NCBI RefSeq assembly: GCF_037976825.1 | Contig: NZ_CP150269.1 | Span: 269,001 to 333,000, forward strand | Length of the DNA stretch: 64,000 nt | Origin: Paenibacillus sp. FSL K6-1330 | GTDB lineage: Bacteria > Bacillota > Bacilli > Paenibacillales > Paenibacillaceae | Reading direction: 5' to 3' | In this document: in pieces, positions 18,406 through 31,672 of the stretch | Position numbering within the stretch: position 1 is the stretch's first letter | Layout: the number at the start of each line of letters is the position of its first letter | Notes under the pieces: model-generated | What the model saw: the letters and a program-made list of their open reading frames with translations, nothing else | Told to the model about the DNA's origin: nothing | Database searches by the model: none | Translations under genes and position numbers: made by a program

Positions 18406-19232
18406 GTATAACAATATAAACATCGTGCCCAAGGCCCAATGAGCAAAGAGTGGCCCTTTAGTCTGTTTAGCTCAAAGTGTATCTTTAGTAATGCTTTTCA
18501 TAAATAGAAGATTAGAGTACTAGTAGTGCCGAAATCAAATTATAGGTCCCAGGGAGGGTGGGATTGGTATAATATGGCTGTTTTTTTTGCATTTGAAGGA
18601 CATATGTAGAAGGATGTCGTATTCCCACACCATAAAATCTTTCTTAGTGGGTTACCGTGGGGCAAGTCTTTTTTTGATTAGAGTTCCATCAGAATGGCTT
18701 TCCTTTCATGGTAACTCGCAAGCTTAACTGTCAGAGTGAGAGGGGTGATCATCCGAGTACAACTAACAGCTTGAAATGAATCAAGGACATCCGCTGGGTC
18801 CTGGGCGAAAGACAGCAAACAGCTCTGTTTCATTTGCTACATAGAGCACCTTCATGTTCTTTGTATTTGCACCGGCTGATGCTTTGGTTCATTGATCAAT
18901 TAACGCGTTACATAATGATGCTAAAGGAGACCTCGTTACATACACAAGCGAAGTAACTCTTAAAGAGATCATGCAGAATTTTGAAAAAGGTTAGATTGTG
19001 TGAGGAATGGGTAGAAACGTCGAATTGTGCGGTTTTCGGTATAAACAACAAGGCAGGAAGTCAGTTGTCTTTCTCTTAACTTGCAATTAGCAACACAATG
19101 CCTTTTACCACGCACCCGCCATGCTGCAACCTACACGGTTCGCAATATGGATGTTGGTTTAGTCGACGGATTAATTATTTGACAGCATTGGAATGGCCCC
19201 AAAGCCTTCCCATTGAAGATAGGGAGGAAACA
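18406..19232. other. Intergenic stretch without a convincing gene
   Basis: I see no full gene here. A short open stretch after a stop (18896-18994, 32 codons ending KEIMQNFEKG and TAG) reads like the tail of a lost coding sequence, but it has no start or ribosome site. A TATAAT occurs near 18570 and a T-run near 18670. An upstream extension of the next gene to 19098 is possible on paper. It has no ribosome site, whereas the start at 19233 has a strong one. Confidence 0.5.
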
Positions 19233-22200
19233 ATGAAAAGAAAACCGATAATCAATCGGCGGTTTAAGTATTTGATGGCTGTTTTCATCATTTTGTTTGG
19301 TCAGATTCTACCTCTATACCCTCAAAATGCAGAGGCTGCAGCAGGAAAATGGCTGAATTTTAAATATGATGGATTCCCCGAAGATACTTTCAAACAATCG
19401 TTTACCGTTAATGGCGCTGCCCAGGTGCCTCCAGGGGAGAATTTTATACGATTGACACCGGCGACTACACAACAAAGCGGATCTGTATTTAACAATACCG
19501 CGCTTTGTCCTAGAGATAACTATTCATTCAGTACAGCCTTTTCGTTTAAAATGAGTAATCCAAGTTCTCAAGGTCCAAGCGACGGATTGACCTTTACGAT
19601 CCAGGCTGGAAAGACCAGTCAGCATGCAGAAGGAGGCGGCTTGGGATATTACGGTATCCAACCGAGTTTTGCCGTTAAATATGACACATTTCTAAACACT
19701 GTATATAAGGATCCTTCTGCAAACTACGTTGGACTTGCGGTAAATGGGACGGTAACCAATGATCAAGCAGGCTGGTTTACCGATTTAGGTCCGTATAATA
19801 CGGCGAATAACACGAACTATGTATTGTCTAACGGAACCATGTACTACACGTGGATCGAATACAATGGTTCAACTCAGAATGTTCAGGTTTATCTGGGCAC
19901 TTCGCCGGATAGGGTAAATGCCAGAAAGATAATAGATGTCAATGACATCGATCTTAGTTCGATATTTAACGGACAATCGTTTTTTGCCGGTTTTACGGGA
20001 TCAACAGGGTCTCCGAATTACGAGACTCATGATATCCATAGCTGGTATTTTGTGAATGAGTACGCTCCGATTGAAACGCTCAATCCGCAAAATGATTACG
20101 AACTGAACCAGCCGCCAACCGTGCCGGGTGATTCAAAAATCACGGCGGTAAACACCCCCGTATCCGGACAAGTAAACGGCACGGACCCAGATGGAGATTC
20201 ATTGACGTACGCCAAAGGCGCGACAGATCCTCAGAACGGAACTGTGACGGTTAATGCGGACGGAACTTGGACTTACACTCCAACGCAAGCTTTTATCGGT
20301 CAGGATAGCTTCACCGTCATCGCCAATGACGGCAAATGCGCCAAGACCGAGGCTACGATTAACGTTGAAGTATCGGACTCGGTTCCGTCAACGAATCAAC
20401 CTCCAGTCGTGTCGGATGATCGGGTGACGACGGAGAAAGATACACCTGTATCGGGCGTTGTGGATGCCACCGACCCGGACGGAGATCCATTAACCTATAC
20501 CCCTGGCAAGGATCCAACGAACGGGAACGTCACGGTTGATAAAGACGGAAACTGGGCCTATACCCCGGATCCGGGCTTTGTCGGCGAGGATCGCTTCACT
20601 GTCATAGTGGATGACGGCAATGGCGGTAAGACCGAAGTTGAAATTATCGTTGATGTGACGGATCCGACTACTCAACCCCCACCTAATGTATGTGGAGAAA
20701 GAGTAGCAATGATTAACGGTAGTTTTGAGGATCCGCTTTATACGCCTAATGACCCTAGATTTGATAGATGGCACGAAAGTTATCCATGGTATCAAATTAA
20801 ACAAGAGGATGTTCCAGGATGGCAAACAACGGATTCTCTTGGTGAATTCGACGCTATGAATAAAGACTTGGCAGAGGAAGCCAGAAATGAGTTGCCGCCT
20901 GATGATCCTCATATGGCTTGGGCCGTTGACCCAGCCCATGGCAAACAGTTTGTCGAATTAAACTCAAATGATGCTTCGCAATTATATCAGGATGTTAAGA
21001 CAACGCCAGGACAAACGATATATTGGCGTTTGGCTCACAGAGGTTTACTTGGCGCTGACACCATGGCAGTTAAAATTGGCCCGAGCTCGATGGTGCCAGG
21101 AAATTTGCCTACCGTTGAGACTATCAGCACAGATAATAAAGCATGGAAATATTACTCAGGCACATATACAGTTCCTGCTGGTCAGACCAGCACACGTTTT
21201 GGATTTGAATCCGTATCAACCTCAACTGGAGCTCAAAATGCGGGCAATCTCTTAGACGATATCTTCCTTGGTACGACGCCTTGTGTGACGGCCAACAAGA
21301 CCGCATCTCCACAAGAAGTGAATGCCGGCGATGAAGTAACCTATGAGATTCAGATCAAAAACGAAGGCGGAGATATCGCCGCAAACACGAGTGTTACGGA
21401 TCTCATCCCGGAAGGAACGGAATATGTTCCTGGTTCCATGAAATGGATCCAAGGTTCGACAACCAAGGACCTGACGGACAAGGCTGATACCGATGAAGGT
21501 CAATTCGATGGCAGCAAGGTCAGCATTCAGTTAGGCGACTTGGCCAATACGAGCCAATTGGCTGATGGCGTTACCGTGCAATTTAAAGTCAAGGTTTTAG
21601 CGAGCGCCGCCAATCAGCAAATTAAGAACAAGGCACAAATCAGCTACGATAACTTATTGACAGGCGATACCGAACAAAAGGAAACGAACGAAACCACAAC
21701 ACCGGTCCGTTTCAATCCGCCTGTTCTGGAGTCCAACAAAACGGCCGTCCTTCAAACCAAGGCTGCCGGAAACACGGACCCTGACCATCCTGAACCAGGC
21801 GATACGCTGCGGTACACGATTCAGGCACGGAACACGGTCGATAACAGCTTCGTCAGCAGTTTGGTCATCTCGGACGATCTACCGGCTGGACTGCAATATG
21901 TACCGGGCAGCCTGAAGGTCGATGGCGTTCCCGTCACGGATGACAAAAGCGATCAAGACGACGGTTTTTATACCGATGGTCAAGTGATCGGCCTGCTCGG
22001 GGATATTACGGATACCAAGTGGCATACGCTTGATTTCGAAGCGATTATCGCGACCGGGCAAGCCGGCAAAAACATTCGCAATACCGCTATCGTTGGCGGT
22101 GAGAATGTGAGCACGCCGAGCAATGCCGAGGAAGTCGTTCAGGTCTATCCGCGCCATCCGGTTGTAGAATCGGAGAAGATCGCAGAAAACCTGGATGCGG

Positions 22201-23867
22201 GCAAAACCAATTTTGAAGTCGGCGATACGATTGTCTACACCATTCGGACAAGAACGGTGACGGATGACGCGTATATCTCGAATCTAAAGATTACGGATAC
22301 GCTGCCGGCAGGATTGGAATACGTGCCAGGTTCCTTAAAAGTGAACGGCAAAACCGCTACTGATGCAGAAGGCGACGATGAAGGCCATGTGGTGACCGGC
22401 TCTGTGTATGGCGGATTCGGCGACATCTGGGATAAGGAGTGGCATGAGCTTCAATTCCATGCGACGATCCAAACCGGACAAGCTGGCAAAGATATTCGAA
22501 ATATTGCCGATGTCAGCGGTGACAATTTCGACGAGCCAAGTATGCCGGAAGAAGAAGTCCAGGTCTATCCGCGTAAACCGGTCATCGTATCGGAGAAGTC
22601 CGCAACGAACCTCGAAGCGGGCAAGGATACGTTTGAAGTCGGCGATACCGCAATCTATTCGATACGGACAAGAACGGTAATAGGCGATACGTACATGGCC
22701 AATCTGGTAATCACCGATACGCTGCCTGCAGGTCTGGAATATATTCCGGGCAGCTTGAAGGTAGACGGCGTTTCGGTCACCGATGACAAGGATAGCGACA
22801 AAGGTCATTATGCTTCAGGTCAGGTCGTCGGTCACGTTGGGGATGTATGGGATACGAAATGGCATACGCTGGAGTTCCGGGCGAAGATCGTAGCAAACGC
22901 CGGAGAGTCGATCCGAAATACCGGGGAGATTACCGGGGACAACATCGATCAACCGAGCCGGCCAACGGATGAGATTGTGGTTGAGAACGGTGGCACACCG
23001 CCAGTGGACCCACCGGTTGATCCGCCAATCGATCCACCAGTCAATCCACCGGTAGATCCAAATCCACCGGTCACGCCGCCTGTAACACCACCGACTACGC
23101 CTTCCCCAGTCATCGAGTCACGGAAGACGTCGCGGGATCTGAATGGCGGCAGCACCGCGGTCGGCGATACGATGGAGTATACGATCTCGGCACGCAATAC
23201 CGTTAGCGGCAGCTATGTGTCCAACCTTGTGATTGCCGACATCCTGCCAGAAGGGCTTGCGTATGTAGCAGGCAGCCTGAAGGTGGATGGCGTTTCCGTC
23301 ACCGACAACGCAGATGGCGACAAAGGCCAGTATGTTAACGGCAAAGTGAGTGGTACCTTTGGACGGATTGCCGATACCGAATGGCATACGATTGAGTTCA
23401 AGGCAACCGTCAAGGCGGGACAAGCCGGTAAATCGATCGAGAACATCGGTGAAGTCACGGGTGATAATGTGACAAGTCCGGAGAAGCCATCGAATGTCAT
23501 CGAAGTGACGGACAACGAGAACCATGATGGTAACAATCCGAATCCGGGTGGAACGGGAGATTCCGACGGAGATTCGAATGAAGACCCGAACGGGAATTCG
23601 AACGAAGGCTCGAATGAAGACACGGATGGAGATTCCGACGGGGATTCGAACACCGGGTCACAAACACCGGACGATCATAACGATTCAACATTGGGCGTAT
23701 CGGATTCGACTCCACAAGATCCGGCTCAATCTGGAGATCAGGCAACGAACCAGCTTAACGGAAATAAACTACCGAATACGGCTACGAATATGTACAGCTA
23801 CATGGTAGCCGGAGCTATTCTGCTTCTTGCAGGCTTGCTTCTGCTCAGAAGAAGAAAAAAAGCATAG
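19233..23867 (+). CDS. Large cell-wall-anchored adhesin: L-type lectin, cadherin-like and DUF11 repeats, LPNTA signal
   Basis: This 1544-residue surface protein starts at ATG 19233, 3 bp after AGGGAGGAAA, and has a signal peptide ending near AEAAA (about residue 36). Regions in order: an L-type lectin-like domain (about 38-285), two tandem Ig/cadherin-like repeats (about 292-480, each with 'TDPDGD' and 'DGTWTYTP'-type strands), a jelly-roll-like region (about 486-680, 'INGSFEDP'), four DUF11 repeats (about 682-1250, each with 'LPAGLEYVPGSLKV'-type cores), a Pro-rich spacer, a fifth DUF11 repeat (about 1293-1428), and an acidic Asn/Gly/Asp linker. LPNTA lies at 1513-1517, then a hydrophobic helix and RRRKKA. 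It is probably attached to peptidoglycan and binds glycans. The LPNTA motif rather than LPXTG suggests a dedicated sortase, as for B. anthracis SrtC. No sortase gene is in the window. Confidence 0.92.
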   Translation: MKRKPIINRRFKYLMAVFIILFGQILPLYPQNAEAAAGKWLNFKYDGFPEDTFKQSFTVNGAAQVPPGENFIRLTPATTQQSGSVFNNTALCPRDNYSFSTAFSFKMSNPSSQGPSDGLTFTIQAGKTSQHAEGGGLGYYGIQPSFAVKYDTFLNTVYKDPSANYVGLAVNGTVTNDQAGWFTDLGPYNTANNTNYVLSNGTMYYTWIEYNGSTQNVQVYLGTSPDRVNARKIIDVNDIDLSSIFNGQSFFAGFTGSTGSPNYETHDIHSWYFVNEYAPIETLNPQNDYELNQPPTVPGDSKITAVNTPVSGQVNGTDPDGDSLTYAKGATDPQNGTVTVNADGTWTYTPTQAFIGQDSFTVIANDGKCAKTEATINVEVSDSVPSTNQPPVVSDDRVTTEKDTPVSGVVDATDPDGDPLTYTPGKDPTNGNVTVDKDGNWAYTPDPGFVGEDRFTVIVDDGNGGKTEVEIIVDVTDPTTQPPPNVCGERVAMINGSFEDPLYTPNDPRFDRWHESYPWYQIKQEDVPGWQTTDSLGEFDAMNKDLAEEARNELPPDDPHMAWAVDPAHGKQFVELNSNDASQLYQDVKTTPGQTIYWRLAHRGLLGADTMAVKIGPSSMVPGNLPTVETISTDNKAWKYYSGTYTVPAGQTSTRFGFESVSTSTGAQNAGNLLDDIFLGTTPCVTANKTASPQEVNAGDEVTYEIQIKNEGGDIAANTSVTDLIPEGTEYVPGSMKWIQGSTTKDLTDKADTDEGQFDGSKVSIQLGDLANTSQLADGVTVQFKVKVLASAANQQIKNKAQISYDNLLTGDTEQKETNETTTPVRFNPPVLESNKTAVLQTKAAGNTDPDHPEPGDTLRYTIQARNTVDNSFVSSLVISDDLPAGLQYVPGSLKVDGVPVTDDKSDQDDGFYTDGQVIGLLGDITDTKWHTLDFEAIIATGQAGKNIRNTAIVGGENVSTPSNAEEVVQVYPRHPVVESEKIAENLDAGKTNFEVGDTIVYTIRTRTVTDDAYISNLKITDTLPAGLEYVPGSLKVNGKTATDAEGDDEGHVVTGSVYGGFGDIWDKEWHELQFHATIQTGQAGKDIRNIADVSGDNFDEPSMPEEEVQVYPRKPVIVSEKSATNLEAGKDTFEVGDTAIYSIRTRTVIGDTYMANLVITDTLPAGLEYIPGSLKVDGVSVTDDKDSDKGHYASGQVVGHVGDVWDTKWHTLEFRAKIVANAGESIRNTGEITGDNIDQPSRPTDEIVVENGGTPPVDPPVDPPIDPPVNPPVDPNPPVTPPVTPPTTPSPVIESRKTSRDLNGGSTAVGDTMEYTISARNTVSGSYVSNLVIADILPEGLAYVAGSLKVDGVSVTDNADGDKGQYVNGKVSGTFGRIADTEWHTIEFKATVKAGQAGKSIENIGEVTGDNVTSPEKPSNVIEVTDNENHDGNNPNPGGTGDSDGDSNEDPNGNSNEGSNEDTDGDSDGDSNTGSQTPDDHNDSTLGVSDSTPQDPAQSGDQATNQLNGNKLPNTATNMYSYMVAGAILLLAGLLLLRRRKKA

Positions 23868-24215: not shown

Positions 24216-24522
24216 GTAACTTGAATAACCTTAGACAAAAGCAATGAAGAGAAAGAGTACCTTGGCGACGTCTTTGAACAGAGAGCCCCGGCCGGTGAAA
24301 AGGGGTAAGGAACGAACCTGGGGAATATGGTCTCTGAGCTGTACACCGAAACCCTGTAAGGGTTGTAGGCTGTACCGGATCCCGCACCCGTTAACGTGCT
24401 AGGGTATACACGCGATATATGGCGTCGTACCCGAAGAGGTGAATGCCGCAAGGCATGAATGAAATTGGGTGGTACCACGTGAGCGGCAAGCTCTCGTCCC
24501 TTTTGGGATGAGGGCTTTTTTT
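24216..24522 (+). ncRNA. Methionine-specific T-box leader
   Basis: The leader has the parts of a class I T-box. Stem I contains AATGAAGAGAAAGAGTA. The specifier region has ATG (24327-24329) next to GGTCTCTG, which pairs back with CAGAGA. The T-box sequence TGGGTGGTACCACG lies at 24466-24479. The terminator is AGCTCTCGTCCC (24489-24500) with GGGATGAGGGCT (24505-24516) and T-run. Uncharged methionyl-tRNA would pair with the ATG codon and stabilise the antiterminator, turning on the tRNA synthetase gene that follows. Confidence 0.93.
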
Positions 24523-24550
24523 GTTGTCAAAAAAAAGGAGGAAGATTGAC

Positions 24551-26196
24551 ATGACGAACATTTTTATCGGCGGTGCCTGGCCTTATGCCAATGGGTCCTT
24601 ACATTTGGGGAGGCTTGCAAGCCTGTTGCCTGGAGACGTATTGGCACGTTATTTCCGCGCGAAAGGCGATCAAGTCTTGTACGTATCCGGCAGTGATTGT
24701 CATGGAACGCCCGTGGCGGTTCAAGCCATTCAGGAGGGCGTGGCTCCGGGGGATATTGCGGATCGGTACCATGGGGAGTTTGTGGATTGCTTCGAACGGC
24801 TGGGTTCTCCTACAACTTATACACGCGAACCGATCAGGCGTTTCATCACGCCGTGGTGCAGGAGCTGTTTCTGAAGCTGCTGGAAAACGGCCATTTGTAT
24901 CGAAAAACCATGAAGCAAACGTATTGCGAAACCGATCAGCGGTTTTTGCCGGACCGCTACGTGGAAGGAGACTGCCCCGTATGCGGCAGCAGGGCCCGTG
25001 GCGATCAGTGCGACGCCTGCTCCACGATACTTGATCCGTCCGACCTGACGAACAGGGCCTGCAAAATTTGCGGAAACCCTCCGGTGGAGCGTCCTACCGA
25101 GCATTTTTACGTATCGCTGTCGCATTTTCAGGGTGAGCTGACGGATGATTTGAATAACGCTCATGGCTGGCGGGACAATGCGGTGCAATTGACCCGAAGA
25201 TACTTGGAGGAAGGGCTCCAGGACCGGGCAGCTACGCGGGATCTGACCTGGGGCGTGGATGTCCCAGTTCCGGGCTTTGAGGATAAGAAAATCTATGTCT
25301 GGATCGAAGCGGTAAGCGGCTATTTATCCGCCAGCAAGCAGTGGGCCGCGGAAACGGGCGGCGATTGGGAATCCTTTTGGCGCAAGGGACGGGGCGAGGT
25401 TACGGCTTACTATGTTCATGGGAAGGACAACATTCCGTTTCATACGTTGATCTGGCCTGCCTTGCTGAAGGGGGCCGGGGGTCTGCACTTGCCGGACCGA
25501 ATCATATCTTGCGAGTACATGACGCTGGAAGGGAAGAAGTTCTCGACCAGTCGGAATTGGGCCATATGGGTGCCGGACCTGTTAAGCCGTTACCAGCCGG
25601 ACTCGATTCGTTATTTCCTCATAGCGAACGGCCCCGAGAAGCGGGATACGGATTTCTCCTGGAGGGAGTTCATTCACAGCCACAATGGCGAGCTTCTTGG
25701 TGCGTTTGGGAATTTCGTCAACCGTACTTTGGTGTTTGTGAATAAATCGTTTGAGGGGAAAGTGCCCGAGGGCTGTATATCTGAAGAGTGGCAGAGCAGG
25801 GTTGAGGCATTGTACTGCGAGTCCGGGGCGCTCATTGAGGATGGGCGACTGAAGGAAGCGTTGGAGTCAATCTTCAGCGTGGTGCGCCTGGCGAACAAAT
25901 ATTTTGATGAACAGAAGCCGTGGATTCAGGTCAAGGAGGATCGCGAAGCGTGCGGGACAACGCTGTATACCTGCGTTCAGATCATAGCCAATTTGGCGAA
26001 TCTGCTGCAGCCGTTTATTCCGTTCTCTTGCGATAGGATACGAGGCTTTCTCTCGCTGGAGAAGCCTGTGTGGGAGTGGTGCCGTGTTCCGGCTGGCAGG
26101 CCGATTCATGACGTAGAGCTTTTGTTTGAGCGGATCGATACCAGCCGGATTGAGGAGGAAACGCGTAGGCTGGGGGAGTTATCCGAAAGGGAGTAA
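24551..26196 (+). pseudogene. metG: Methionyl-tRNA synthetase gene with a one-base frameshift
   Basis: The gene starts at ATG 24551 after AAAAAAGGAGG and encodes a class I methionyl-tRNA synthetase of about 548 residues. The ATP-binding HLGR form of HIGH lies in '[16 protein letters not shown]', the zinc knuckle has CPVC and CDAC, and the KMSKS-type loop is KKFSTSR. At 24804-24810 the frame breaks: the first part ends in 'CFERLG' and the second resumes as '[15 protein letters not shown]'. One missing T in the GGTTCTCC run explains this. The enzyme lacks the C-terminal EMAP-type tRNA-binding domain found on the main MetG of many Bacillales, so it may be a second, T-box-controlled copy. Whether it is truly inactive or a sequence error cannot be decided here. 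Confidence 0.85.
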
Positions 26197-26808: not shown

Positions 26809-27663
26809 TTAGTTGTCCGTTTCATGAATCCAATCTGTTAATATGGCATCAAAAAGCTCAGGCTCTTCGAACATCGGATTATGGCCGCTTTTTTCAAAAA
26901 TGACCTTCTTCACGTGTTCCTGCGAGTCGTCTACAGCATCCCAGAGTGATACGGGACTGACCAAATAGTCGTACCGTCCAAGACCGATGAGGACGGGCTT
27001 GGCAACCTCTTTCAACGAATCGATCAGATTGAGCCGTGCGAAGGCTTCTCCCCATAAATGATCCATGACGGGCATGCTGGTGAAGACCCCTTCCCACATC
27101 CAAGCCGCATCATAAGCATAGTCATAGAAGCTGTGCGCTCCCATTCGGATGCACATATGAGCAAAACGACGTTCCGGCTCTCTCTGGATGTCCCCCGCCA
27201 GCAGGGCGATATCCGCTTCAAACTGCCGTTTCCGTTCAGGGCTTGCCGTTTCATTGAAAAAAGCGATGCTCTGCTGCTGCCGCTCCGGGCTGTTGGTCGG
27301 GGCCGTGTTCAGCAGGACCACCTTCCGGACATGTTCCGGATATTTTTTGGCATACTCCAGCGCCATGAAGGCATGGCCCGAATGCCCCAATATAATAAAA
27401 TCCTCCAGTTCCAGCGTTTGCCTTGCCGCTTCGATATCATCCAGAACCTTATCCAGCGCATAGTCTTCCGGCTCCAGTGTCCGAGGGGGCTTCACAAAGC
27501 CTCGATGGTCCAGGAAAATCAGTTGAAATGAAGTGTAGAGTTGTTCCGAAAACAAGCGGGGGTAGTAAATACTGCTTCCCACCACCAAAATAGGCCTGCC
27601 GTTTCCACGAATGGAAACATTCAATGCAAATCCTTCGCTTATTACCGTACTCTGTATGCTCAT
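26809..27663 (-). CDS. Alpha/beta hydrolase, S33-like
   Basis: The 284-residue protein has an alpha/beta-hydrolase fold with the complete triad in view: nucleophile elbow GHSGH (Ser, about residue 95), Asp in 'GLGRYDYLVSP' and His in 'EKSGHNPMFEEP'. The oxyanion-hole region is 'VVGSSIYYPRLF', and 'LDHRGFVKPP' follows. It resembles proline iminopeptidase-type hydrolases, but the substrate cannot be named. It has no signal peptide or membrane segment. It is a single-gene unit with its own terminator. Confidence 0.88.
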   Translation of the reverse strand: MSIQSTVISEGFALNVSIRGNGRPILVVGSSIYYPRLFSEQLYTSFQLIFLDHRGFVKPPRTLEPEDYALDKVLDDIEAARQTLELEDFIILGHSGHAFMALEYAKKYPEHVRKVVLLNTAPTNSPERQQQSIAFFNETASPERKRQFEADIALLAGDIQREPERRFAHMCIRMGAHSFYDYAYDAAWMWEGVFTSMPVMDHLWGEAFARLNLIDSLKEVAKPVLIGLGRYDYLVSPVSLWDAVDDSQEHVKKVIFEKSGHNPMFEEPELFDAILTDWIHETDN

Positions 27664-28008: not shown

Positions 28009-29127
28009 TTATTCAGCGGTAACGCGGATTGTTAGGGTGAGTCCAGGATAGTCGGCGGCAATTGCGCTCTTGCGCTCCATGATGCGGTCAAATTCAAAGG
28101 CAGAGCTGAATAATTCCGGCTCAGGCTTGAATGTCACGCTGGTACCTGTCTCCTGAGTCATGCCGACAATCTGAAGCCCGGTCTGCGGAATGCCGTGCCT
28201 GTACTCCTGCCGGTATATGTTCCCGTCACGGCGAATTTCCACGGTCAGCTGCTTGGAGAGGGCATTGACTACGGCGATGCTGATGCCTTTTTCGGCGCCG
28301 GGGACCAGAAAGTGTGCGCTGGCGTTCAATTGGTGGACATCGGTTAGTACCGATTGTACGACTGGGATGTTGGAATTCGGAAGGGCCTGCACAGGTATGC
28401 CTCTCCCGTTATCGGTAACCGTCACGCTGCCATCCTCATGCAGGAAAATGCCAATCTGATCGCCATACCCGCTCGTGTGCTCCAATACTGAATTTTCCAC
28501 TACGGCCCAAAGCAGCTGATGAATATCGAAGCCGTGCGAGGTTCCAAAATACATCCCCGGATTGTTGCGGGTTTCGGTCATCTCCAGGTAATCGCTTGTA
28601 TCGAGCAAATCGCCTGCAGCAGACAGCAGCAGCAGGAACGGCAGGCTCCGATGCTTAGGAAGAGCGTACCGGCCGCCCTGCTCCTGCACAAGGAGATCCG
28701 CGCCGAGCAGCGCTTTGAGGTGGTGATACAGCTGACCCGTCGTTCCCATATTCAACCGTTCTACCAGCTCGGAACCGGATAGGGGCTCTGCCATGACGGC
28801 CTTTAAAATATCCAGGCGCTGCTTGTTGCCCAGTGCTGCGAGGATTTTGGCAGCCTTCTCGGTGTTCATGTCCAGCAATTGATCCATTCGCCGTTCCTGC
28901 GGCTCCCAGCGGATGTTTTGTCCGTTCAGGTGCACTTGCCCGGAGTAGAATACGGAGCCGTCTTCGAAGGTTGCTTCATGTATCGTAGGTGCTGTTGCGA
29001 TTTCTTGGCGGTGTTGGTTTGATGCGGATACAGGTTTGCGTTCCATAAGAGCTTGATAAACAAGCTGCTGCAGCTCTGCCATTTGATTCTTTAAGACATC
29101 CATCTCATAAACCAGATCACGTGTCAT
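28009..29127 (-). CDS. ArsR-type HTH fused to a GyrB-like GHKL ATP-binding domain
   Basis: The 372-residue protein has a coiled-coil-like start (1-30), an ArsR-type winged helix (about 86-165, 'ALGNKQRLDILKAVM' and 'GQLYHHLKALLGADLL'), and a C-terminal half (about 178-345) that follows the ATPase domain of type II topoisomerase GyrB. There it shows 'NNPGMYFGTS', 'VENSVLEH', 'TDNGRGIPVQ', 'SIAVVNALSKQLTVEIRRDG' and 'ETGTSVTFKP'. By alignment by eye with the GyrB motif W-E-I-V-D-N, the catalytic Glu is replaced by Ala208 while the Mg-binding Asn (N212) and the G1 box (D239-G243) remain. The lid motif GLHGVG is reduced to GAEKGIS. It may bind ATP without fast hydrolysis and use it as a signal for DNA binding. 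No topoisomerase cleavage domain is present. Twin palindromes lie upstream. Confidence 0.85.
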   Translation of the reverse strand: MTRDLVYEMDVLKNQMAELQQLVYQALMERKPVSASNQHRQEIATAPTIHEATFEDGSVFYSGQVHLNGQNIRWEPQERRMDQLLDMNTEKAAKILAALGNKQRLDILKAVMAEPLSGSELVERLNMGTTGQLYHHLKALLGADLLVQEQGGRYALPKHRSLPFLLLLSAAGDLLDTSDYLEMTETRNNPGMYFGTSHGFDIHQLLWAVVENSVLEHTSGYGDQIGIFLHEDGSVTVTDNGRGIPVQALPNSNIPVVQSVLTDVHQLNASAHFLVPGAEKGISIAVVNALSKQLTVEIRRDGNIYRQEYRHGIPQTGLQIVGMTQETGTSVTFKPEPELFSSAFEFDRIMERKSAIAADYPGLTLTIRVTAE

Positions 29128-29163: not shown

Positions 29164-29189
29164 ATTACGTAATTATTTTATTACGTAAT
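29164..29189. promoter_or_regulatory. Twin palindromic operator ATTACGTAAT
   Basis: Two perfect copies of ATTACGTAAT lie at 29164-29173 and 29180-29189, centres 16 bp apart (about one and a half helical turns). They lie 37-62 bp before the ArsR-GHKL start and about 104 bp before the divergent GNAT gene, and may control both. Confidence 0.7.
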
Positions 29190-29292
29190 TCCAACATTGT
29201 AAACCCGTATTAAGGAAATAGGTACACGAATAAGCGATTTATTTATCTATAGTTGTTTTTTATCTATGTTTATCATCCCGGGTCGTCTTACA

Positions 29293-30231
29293 ATGAACGC
29301 AAAGGTTGGTGACATTCATTTGGGTGAAAGAATCATACGGAATTTTAAGCAGGACGATATGCCTCTGCTGGGGGAGCTGTATCAGGTTGTATCCGCAGCG
29401 GATGCACTGTTTTGGTGGGTAGGTGACCAGGACAATTGGGGCAACGTGTTCTGTGCTATTGAAGATGGGAAGATGGTGGCCAAGGGACAAGTGGGCATTA
29501 TTAACGTGATCCCGCCTGGATGTGAGCCTACCTGCAAGCATCACATTTATGTGAATCTCAAGGCTGTACCACAGCGGGAGCGGGATTATGATCTGTTAGG
29601 TGAAATGTATAAGGTGCTCTATGAACGTGCCCTTGCGTTAAAGAGGACGCTGCCGGAGACATACGGGACGTATTTGTGCGTGGGCAACTATGCCCATGAG
29701 ATCGGCAACAACACTTTCTTTACAGAGGATATCGGATTTCAGCCGCTGGAGAAGTTGTATTCAATGAAGCGGTCACTTAATGAGCCTTTACATGCCTTGC
29801 CGTTAGATGATCGCTATCGCTATCGACTGTGGAAGATGGAATCTGCGGAAGAGGAAGAGATGTATCTAAAGCTCGAGGCTGAGGTTTGGCCGGAAGCGCC
29901 GCTGGGGCTTGGACGATTACGGGAATACAAAGGGCATCCCAGCTGGACTGCCACGAATGTCCTGGAAGGGGACACGATAATCGGCAGTACCATGGCATGG
30001 GTGGAAGAAGGGAACGTCGGCGTGATTGAAGATGTGTTTGTGAGAGAACCGTGGAGACAACGGGGAATCGCCAAATATCTGCTCTACCGTGCCATGTCCT
30101 ATCTTCAGGCTCATGGATCCGTCTCGGTAAAACTTCAAGTGAAGGCAGCCAATGAGACGGCGTTGTCACTCTATCATTCGGTTGGCTTTGCCAAAGATCA
30201 AGAGGAGCATCGATTTTATCTGCCTTTATAA
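29293..30231 (+). CDS. GNAT-family N-acetyltransferase
   Basis: This 312-residue protein has a clear C-terminal GNAT domain: 'VGVIEDVFVREPWRQRGIAK' with the acetyl-CoA loop R-Q-R-G-I-A, then 'VKAANETALSLYHSVGFA'. The N-terminal half looks like a second, more divergent GNAT-like lobe, a layout known from two-domain family members. The start is uncertain. ATG 29293 is used, the in-frame ATG 29266 is also possible, and neither has a good ribosome site. It is divergent from the ArsR-GHKL gene across the twin palindrome. The substrate cannot be told. Confidence 0.85.
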   Translation: MNAKVGDIHLGERIIRNFKQDDMPLLGELYQVVSAADALFWWVGDQDNWGNVFCAIEDGKMVAKGQVGIINVIPPGCEPTCKHHIYVNLKAVPQRERDYDLLGEMYKVLYERALALKRTLPETYGTYLCVGNYAHEIGNNTFFTEDIGFQPLEKLYSMKRSLNEPLHALPLDDRYRYRLWKMESAEEEEMYLKLEAEVWPEAPLGLGRLREYKGHPSWTATNVLEGDTIIGSTMAWVEEGNVGVIEDVFVREPWRQRGIAKYLLYRAMSYLQAHGSVSVKLQVKAANETALSLYHSVGFAKDQEEHRFYLPL

Positions 30232-30320: not shown

Positions 30321-31364
30321 TTACCCGCCTGTTACATTCGGATTGGCATCCAGAATACCTTCCGTGACGCTCCACAGTTTTGGCAGGAACCGAAGAACCT
30401 TGTCGGCCCGTTGCAGCAGGTCATCGGTGGACGTTATGCCGAGATCCGCAAGGATGGCCTCAAAAGAAGGGGCATACTGCTCTTGAAACTCAGGAGTCCC
30501 GTCAACTTCCAATATGTTGTGGCATCGAGCGAAGGTGGCCACCATCCAGAAGACGGCCTCTCTATGGCTTCCGTTTAGGATCAGCTCGCGGCTGCCGTCA
30601 ATGGCAATCGGTCTTGCATCCGGCGTAATGTCACTGCTGAAGAAGAAGGGGGTCTTGGCAATCGCAGCAGCGGCATCGAAGGTGCGGGCCAGCCCATTAA
30701 GATGATGGAGCGCTTGTTCGGCACTCATGTCTTTACAACCCAGTAGTTGTAACAGTTCGTCGTAAATTACCTCTTGGTCATATTCCTTGAGCACATCGTG
30801 AACCGCCGCATAGCGCAGCCTGACCGTGGGGTTGCGAAGAGCAGCGACCAGGAGCAAATGGGTGGTTACGCCGGTAGGGAACAGCCATGAGGTAACCTGG
30901 CGATGCCAAGGGGCAGAAGGATCTATGGAGCGGAGTCCGGTTATGATTCGTTCGCGTACGTTCTCACAGCGGCGGGCGACCCATATCCGGTCGGCAAAAT
31001 GACGCGAAACCTCCGTCTGCAGCTTACGCAGCTGCCCGGTTGGATCGGACATCAGGGTATCCACACGGAAGCTGCCCGCAAGATGATAGGATGTTAATAC
31101 CTGCTCGGGCGAGGCGAGGTCCCGCCAGGACAGGTAGGTGGCTTCGATCAAAGCATCCTGGTAGATAAATTTTCCCAGCTTAAGAGGGGGCTCCGCATCC
31201 TGGGTAACAACAACGATGTCAATGTCCGAGGACGGAGCCATCTCTGCTTCATCCGGCTTTCCAACCGTGGAGCCACTAAAATAGGCACCCATAAATCCAG
31301 GCTCCCTGCTGGCATGCTGCAATACCCAATCCGTCGCCGCTGCGCGTGCTGATCCAACGTTCAT
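30321..31364 (-). CDS. Nucleotidyltransferase-fold protein
   Basis: This 347-residue protein has an N-terminal nucleotidyltransferase motif, 'GAYFSGSTVGKPDE' followed by 'SSDIDIVVV', which is the G-S...D-x-D pattern of the pol-beta superfamily. The rest is helical with no recognised catalytic motif. I chose the ATG at 31364 because GAGGAGGAATAAAGG lies just before it; a 12-codon longer version has no such site. Members of this fold include antibiotic adenylyltransferases and toxins, but nothing here points to either. It is a single-gene unit. Confidence 0.8.
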   Translation of the reverse strand: MNVGSARAAATDWVLQHASREPGFMGAYFSGSTVGKPDEAEMAPSSDIDIVVVTQDAEPPLKLGKFIYQDALIEATYLSWRDLASPEQVLTSYHLAGSFRVDTLMSDPTGQLRKLQTEVSRHFADRIWVARRCENVRERIITGLRSIDPSAPWHRQVTSWLFPTGVTTHLLLVAALRNPTVRLRYAAVHDVLKEYDQEVIYDELLQLLGCKDMSAEQALHHLNGLARTFDAAAAIAKTPFFFSSDITPDARPIAIDGSRELILNGSHREAVFWMVATFARCHNILEVDGTPEFQEQYAPSFEAILADLGITSTDDLLQRADKVLRFLPKLWSVTEGILDANPNVTGG

Positions 31365-31672
31365 AACCTTTATTCCTCCTCTACTTGCATGGTGTCTCAC
31401 ATAATTAGAAAAAATATCCTGTTTCTCACTACATTATATTGACTTCAATTCGAATGTACAACCGCTTACAAGAAGAGACTTGAGCTTTCACGTTTATGAA
31501 AATACGGGATTACAGAAGAAGAGAAAATGATACGGGTCCAAGAGATTCGCAAGGGCTTGGCACATATAAATTAAAAGTTAATACGGGTGCGTGCCTGTGT
31601 GAAACCGAAACGGACATTCTCTTATCGTAAACATTCAGCGAGGAGGAACGCCCGTTTTTTTGGTCTTTTATT
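31365..31672. other. Intergenic region without a gene
   Basis: No plausible gene is seen. An imperfect inverted repeat, AAACGGACATTC and GAACGCCCGTTT, lies at about 31608-31656 and is followed by a T-run on the plus strand. No plus-strand gene ends before it, so its role is unclear. Confidence 0.45.

Follow-up and report, generated by a model that had tools for sequence, protein, structure and literature searches.

What might a protein do that joins a DNA-binding winged helix to the ATPase domain of a topoisomerase? The question is raised by a gene on the minus strand (28009..29127) of the window, the whole 64,000-nucleotide stretch of Paenibacillus DNA analysed here. The gene is a single open reading frame with an ATG start and encodes 372 aa; coordinates of its parts refer to the same strand. 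A preliminary description had read it as an ArsR repressor fused to a GyrB-like domain, and the single frame, with Pfam and GyrB/ParE matches, confirms this architecture.

Profile matches place an ArsR-type winged helix at residues 93–156 (28660..28851), the query exceeding the curated cut-offs of HTH_5 (residues 102–145; 25.2 bits, cut-off 22) and HTH_20 (residues 99–148; 29.3 bits, cut-off 27), as it does that of HATPase_c (residues 201–336) in the other half. When 35 fusion members were compared with the HTH models, 31 matched HTH_20 and 23 matched HTH_5 (E ≤ 0.001); the NCBIfam model HTH_metalloreg matched all 35 at E ≤ 1e-4, the query scoring 35.1 bits, below its cut-off of 55. The stretch GTTGQLYHHLKALL within the winged helix is highly conserved, and the HTH also matched Csa3 models in PADLOC, a match that bears on a possible anti-phage role. 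Although the fusion resembles ArsR/SmtB-type repressors in its HTH_5 and HTH_20 matches, it differs from them in having a large C-terminal domain and in lacking the cysteines of their metal site. The query contains no Cys at all, and at least two occur in the winged-helix half of only 3 of the 120 homologues that we aligned (the best 120 of 7935 matches, each matching at least 77% of the query length; this alignment is separate from 27 further relatives among the 245 reported in a wider search). ArsR proteins that do not bind metal exist. By sequence, the winged-helix half gave weak matches to two solved ArsR-type or HlyU-type chains (E = 0.003 and 0.006); folded separately, it was modelled poorly (mean pLDDT 53), and the matches listed from a structure search with the full model span the GHKL half only.

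The C-terminal half, residues 184–368 (28024..28578), is a GHKL domain of the GyrB/ParE 24-kDa type by profile, sequence and structure matches, with E-values from 1.6e-45 to 6.2e-37 for the GyrB/ParE models. The query scores far below the full-length cut-offs of these models because it contains only this one of their domains: a gyrB-type model was covered only at positions 22–209 of 641, the frame ends at residue 372, and the transducer and Toprim domains of GyrB/ParE are absent. In the AlphaFold model, a long predicted helix (residues 158–188; 28564..28656) leads from the winged helix to the GHKL domain and stands where GyrB has its N-terminal arm, whose residues are lost in the alignment. 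An N-terminal helix (residues 5–28) and a predicted beta-hairpin (residues 58–80; 28888..29115 for the two) form a possible dimerisation part, pLDDT in blocks of residues 1–80 ranging from 30 to 86; the lid is poorly modelled, with pLDDT below 50 at residues 246–255. Compared with the 24-kDa subdomain of type IIA topoisomerases, the fusion thus has a winged helix attached and lacks the catalytic Glu, the ATP-lid, the N-terminal arm, the transducer and Toprim.

The loss of the catalytic Glu, reported for this gene in the preliminary description, was borne out. Ala208 (codon GCC, 28504..28506) occupies the position that we take to be E42 of Escherichia coli GyrB, with numbering anchored on the alignments, and WAVVEN of the query lies without gaps on WEIVDN or YEIVDN in three alignments (Staphylococcus aureus GyrB and two ParE entries). 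Among the best 120 of the 7935 matches this column contains A in 108, S in seven, P in three and E in two, so that Glu is replaced in 118 and its loss is a trait of the family, beyond the query. By comparison, E occupies the column in all 21 GyrB/ParE references (the usable copies of 30 loci named), and it is kept in the GyrB- and ParE-type proteins of the window's own genome, as labelled in this analysis. The two homologues with Glu (P0015 and P0028) do not regain a complete active site, because their lid is still altered. A shifted alignment that would bring the Glu back was rejected, given the gap-free motif in all three alignments and a change common to the family. Strong GyrB/ParE similarity might still suggest that the protein is catalytically active, as a GHKL ATPase or protein kinase, or belongs to a topoisomerase. 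We give this hardly any credence, since the Glu is missing from nearly all homologues, the gyrB match stops at position 209 and the frame ends there, and GyrB- and ParE-type proteins are encoded separately in the genome, in open frames 656 and 659 aa long.

Losses and retentions in the remainder of the domain follow a pattern. Of 76 columns that are at least 95% invariant in the 21 references, 25 remain at least 90% conserved in the fusion family and 51 do not, many of the latter lying outside catalysis. The equivalents of N46, E50, D73, G75, R76, G77, I78 and P79 are kept, with several others, those of N46, E50, D73 and R76 in 120 of 120 homologues. The preliminary description had noted that the N-box Asn and the DNGRG box remain, and this stands for the family: Asn212 (codon 28492..28494; E. 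coli N46), Asp239, Gly241 and Arg242 are each found in 120/120 and Gly243 in 119/120, so that the N-box Asn and the D-x-G-x-G motif of GHKL proteins are present, the DNGRG box (D73–G77 in E. coli) spanning residues 239–243 (28399..28413). Arg occupies the R136 position in 116 of 120 members versus 16 of 21 references, and Thr the T165 position in 116 of 120 versus 19 of 21. Conversely, E42, H38, D45, D49, the N-terminal arm, a Lys-Phe pair of the lid and the motif GGLHGVG are lost. The query has GAEKGIS in place of this last motif, within a remodelled ATP-lid (PGAEKGIS, residues 276–283, 28279..28302; SGGLHGVG in the references) in which the His is found in none of the 120 homologues and a Lys is near-invariant (107/120); the helper His persists in only 45 of 120. 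In E. coli GyrB we take E42 to be the general base, H38 its helper, and K103 and K337 phosphate contacts.

Absence of ATP turnover by the GHKL domain, as the preliminary description had predicted, is well supported by these losses. ATP binding, the other half of that prediction, appears weakened and is less certain than was held: the triphosphate contacts are largely gone because the lid is changed, one Lys of it is deleted, and neither the N-terminal arm nor the transducer is present. Judged by its residues, the predicted adenine/inhibitor pocket is retained while the triphosphate contacts are largely lost, a pattern that argues for a pocket that would bind some ligand without hydrolysing ATP. 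One tentative candidate for the ligand is an adenylate, ATP or ADP bound without turnover, with repression following the energy state of the cell. The equivalents of the adenine pocket are kept (Asp239, Asn212, Thr329 and the DNGRG box) and the Lys of the new lid could meet a phosphate, but every triphosphate element just listed is gone. On its own, moreover, the 24-kDa fragment of GyrB shows poor ATP binding and no hydrolysis, which also weighs against an adenylate.

The same pocket could instead sense natural products directed against GyrB, such as aminocoumarins, as the preliminary description had suggested; the drug would then derepress the gene, together with its neighbour where there is one. 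Titles of structure entries record 24-kDa subdomains of GyrB and ParE crystallised with novobiocin; a passage of one paper describes this drug as binding the GHKL domain of GyrB, overlapping the nucleotide site, and one of its figure legends describes the 24-kDa fragment with novobiocin (PMC7956263). R136, the position altered in a novobiocin-resistant mutant according to the title of PDB entry 1aj6, is among the retained residues, and the pocket is as conserved as in the references. These points favour a drug sensor, which we nevertheless consider rather unlikely, because R136 and other residues could be retained for the fold and because the inhibitor pocket is the adenine pocket too.

The fusion forms a family of its own. 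At E ≤ 1e-60 it was matched in 50 of the 295 genomes sampled from its taxonomic family, in 97 of 392 of the order (a sample overlapping the former) and, across the phylum, in one of 398, the window's own genome; five or six candidates were scored per genome, so that misses are possible, and some matches are partial. One match (G103) contains an internal stop. With the N-terminal half as query, matches came from 2 of 398 genomes sampled in the class; one of the two (G992) lies outside the order and likewise encodes the complete fusion, its Glu column holding Ser and its upstream region repeats of ACGT type. In a tree of 21 family members and the 21 references, the two groups were split with support 100 by a branch of 1.22; the point at which the family joins the references, GyrB or ParE, is not fixed by this tree. 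In full-text searches of open-licence papers, no study of such a fusion was recognised among the papers listed, a weak negative result. Neither 72,556 plasmid records (four with a match at E ≤ 1e-30) nor 50,697 phage records (68 with a match at E ≤ 1e-10) contained a place covering 80% of the query, and we rejected a mobile-element gene on these grounds. The four plasmid matches and the 10 listed of the 68 phage matches all lie within residues 183–368, the GyrB-type half.

Both halves of the protein look to be under purifying selection, with dN/dS between 0.075 and 0.235 in nine of ten pairs; the tenth (L089/L104), at 0.36–0.50, has very low divergence and is little informative. The open frame and low dN/dS also led us to reject a pseudogene. 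Selection on the GHKL half bears on a further reading, in which this half serves purely as a module for structure or dimerisation and binds no ligand. Loss of the lid and of catalytic residues, with 51 of the 76 reference-invariant columns unkept, would suit such a module, but it would have to coexist with selection on this half, with four pocket residues unchanged in every homologue and with the near-constant Arg and Thr at the R136 and T165 positions; we regard it as decidedly unlikely.

A clue to function lies upstream of the gene. Two perfect ATTACGTAAT palindromes of 10 bp each, 6 bp apart, flank the −10 box at 29164..29189 and form a proposed operator, which overlaps a sigma-A-like promoter assigned by consensus match (TTTACA-17-TAAAAT; 29175..29203, minus strand). 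Here too the preliminary description had pointed to the right DNA: the site is an exact palindrome pair on the gene's own promoter, and relatives carry related repeats in the same place. Allowing up to two mismatches, its pattern matched once in the window and never in 100 shuffles. We scored the upstream regions of 53 loci, of which two pairs (L005/L060 and L007/L062) are identical gene copies, leaving 51 distinct, for in-phase TACGTAAT octamers (maximum 32). Scores ranged from 18 to 28 and exceeded 21 at 48 of the 53 loci; 21 was the highest value reached in each of two controls, 837 stretches drawn at random from the same loci (mean 15.8) and 1060 dinucleotide-shuffled upstream parts (mean 16.0), and 52 loci scored above the best of their own 20 shuffles. 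At 42 of 53 loci, in a count made without a shuffle control, a promoter-like pair with at most two mismatches of 12 lies near the operator. Two arrangements occur, one group having the −10 box between two sites and the other having the sites after it; one locus (L081) has no near operator by the pattern used.

Elsewhere in these genomes the site is scarce. The window's genome has the exact site once, at the fusion's own promoter, and two further sites at three mismatches, as compared with one for a reversed control. Among eight genomes, seven had matches, the best at the own promoter, with two off-site matches against one for the control. Across 30 genomes (one, G207, also among the eight) the own-promoter site was found in 28, G182 and G288 being without it by the pattern used; the 12 off-site matches, none exact, compare with 35 for the reversed pattern, while a scrambled pattern of the same composition gave 61, of which five were exact. 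Both controls are imperfect, as ACGT, TGCA and other short words are not equally frequent. The surroundings of the fusion gene at the 53 loci contain two further sites in 789,618 bases. We found no wider regulon in the 30 genomes with this pattern, which degenerate sites would escape, as off-site matches were fewer than those of either control. With an operator-like site conserved at its own promoter, putative autoregulation is the only clear regulatory signal.

From these results we propose, with a probability of roughly 0.65, that the fusion is a one-component autorepressor which senses its ligand through a gyrase pocket retired from hydrolysis; this ligand may be an adenine nucleotide or else a natural inhibitor fitting GyrB. 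The winged helix would bind the conserved repeats flanking its own −10 box and block transcription. The C-terminal half would be an ATPase subdomain of the GyrB/ParE 24-kDa type, no longer able to hydrolyse ATP after the loss of catalytic residues, and its adenine/inhibitor pocket, to judge from residue conservation and dN/dS, is kept by purifying selection. A small ligand in this pocket, an adenine nucleotide or GyrB inhibitor, would shift both the lid and the long helix that connects the two domains and thereby alter DNA binding, the signal travelling along predicted helix 158–188 in place of the GyrB arm. The switch would probably raise the level of the protein itself and, where present, of the gene behind it. 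The ATP- or drug-sensing repressor of the preliminary description was thus right in outline, a catalytically dead sensor repressor with a promoter site, as the family-wide Glu loss and the repeats at the own promoter suggest, and overconfident on ATP. If our proposal is right, a transcription factor has acquired its sensor in evolution from the ATP pocket of an essential antibiotic target, which would be a clean example of a pseudo-ATPase serving as a switch. It would also give a Paenibacillales family a testable job, and possibly offer a ready-made sensor of GyrB ligands or adenylates.

To have itself as the only clear target is odd for a regulator, and the physiological output is not obvious, because no other target stands out and the next frame called downstream, by crude gene calls of which some are clearly spurious, is on the other strand at 26 of the 53 loci. 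A self-inducing decoy is a further reading: a GyrB-directed antibiotic would bind the dead pocket and lift repression, and the additional decoy would soak up the drug. If true, this would combine sensing and protection in one gene and explain both a pocket kept without catalysis and an own promoter as the only clear site. The example of STM3175, an HTH regulator with a drug-binding domain that is described as trapping a gyrase poison, makes the decoy plausible and no more, and we judge it quite unlikely.

The proposed autorepressor has partial counterparts among known systems. Like AlbA and STM3175/YgiV, which are described as binding the gyrase poison albicidin, it combines an HTH with a putative ligand domain. 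STM3175 is described as trapping the drug, and autoregulation is among the explanations that its authors raise (PMC10414762); its ligand domain is described as GyrI-like, whereas that of the fusion resembles the drug target, gyrase, itself. CapK/CapS, a GHKL kinase with a STAS-wHTH repressor, likewise links a GHKL domain to control by a wHTH repressor, but CapK is described as an active (PMC13373217), anti-sigma-factor-like kinase acting on a separate repressor, unlike the fusion, which is one protein of GyrB type without the catalytic Glu.

Neighbouring genes were called crudely, as open reading frames of at least 70 aa, some of them spurious antisense frames. In the window, an alpha/beta hydrolase gene (26809..27663, minus strand, by Pfam) lies 346 bp downstream of the fusion on the same strand and is possibly co-regulated with it in this clade, and a GNAT acetyltransferase gene (29266..30231, plus strand, by Pfam) diverges from it 139 bp away, across a common intergenic region. 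The next downstream frame is on the same strand at 27 of the 53 loci, within 150 bp at 19. Downstream we found a SAM-dependent methyltransferase at 11 of 53 loci, an alpha/beta hydrolase at seven (five distinct) and YnfA at three, and small multidrug pumps occur at 10, upstream on the other strand at nine and downstream at one (L090); Pfam was used to check one methyltransferase, one YnfA and one pump. Such neighbourhoods are compatible with a detoxification theme and would favour a sensor of GyrB-directed drugs, against which it counts that neighbours differ by clade and that many loci share no common neighbour.

At nine loci (L084, L091, L093, L095, L096, L099, L100, L102 and L103) the genes upstream on the other strand comprise a TetR-like gene, identified by eye, and one or two small multidrug-resistance pump genes. 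A 359-aa frame at 30321–31400 of the window (minus strand), nucleotidyltransferase-like by eye, matched no model of Pfam at E ≤ 0.1 or of NCBIfam at E ≤ 1; at six loci, two of which are duplicates, a relative of it is found upstream of the fusion on the same strand. At 24521–26196 (plus strand), a methionyl-tRNA-synthetase-like gene is split over two frames, which match PF09334 at positions 2–82 and then 78–391, by frameshift or sequencing error; its relatives have one open frame of 558 aa (L005/L060) or 556 aa (L007/L062). Finally, the window encodes a surface-type protein of 1589 aa (19098–23867, plus strand) with repeated stretches and, by eye, an LPNTA-like sorting signal near its C terminus.
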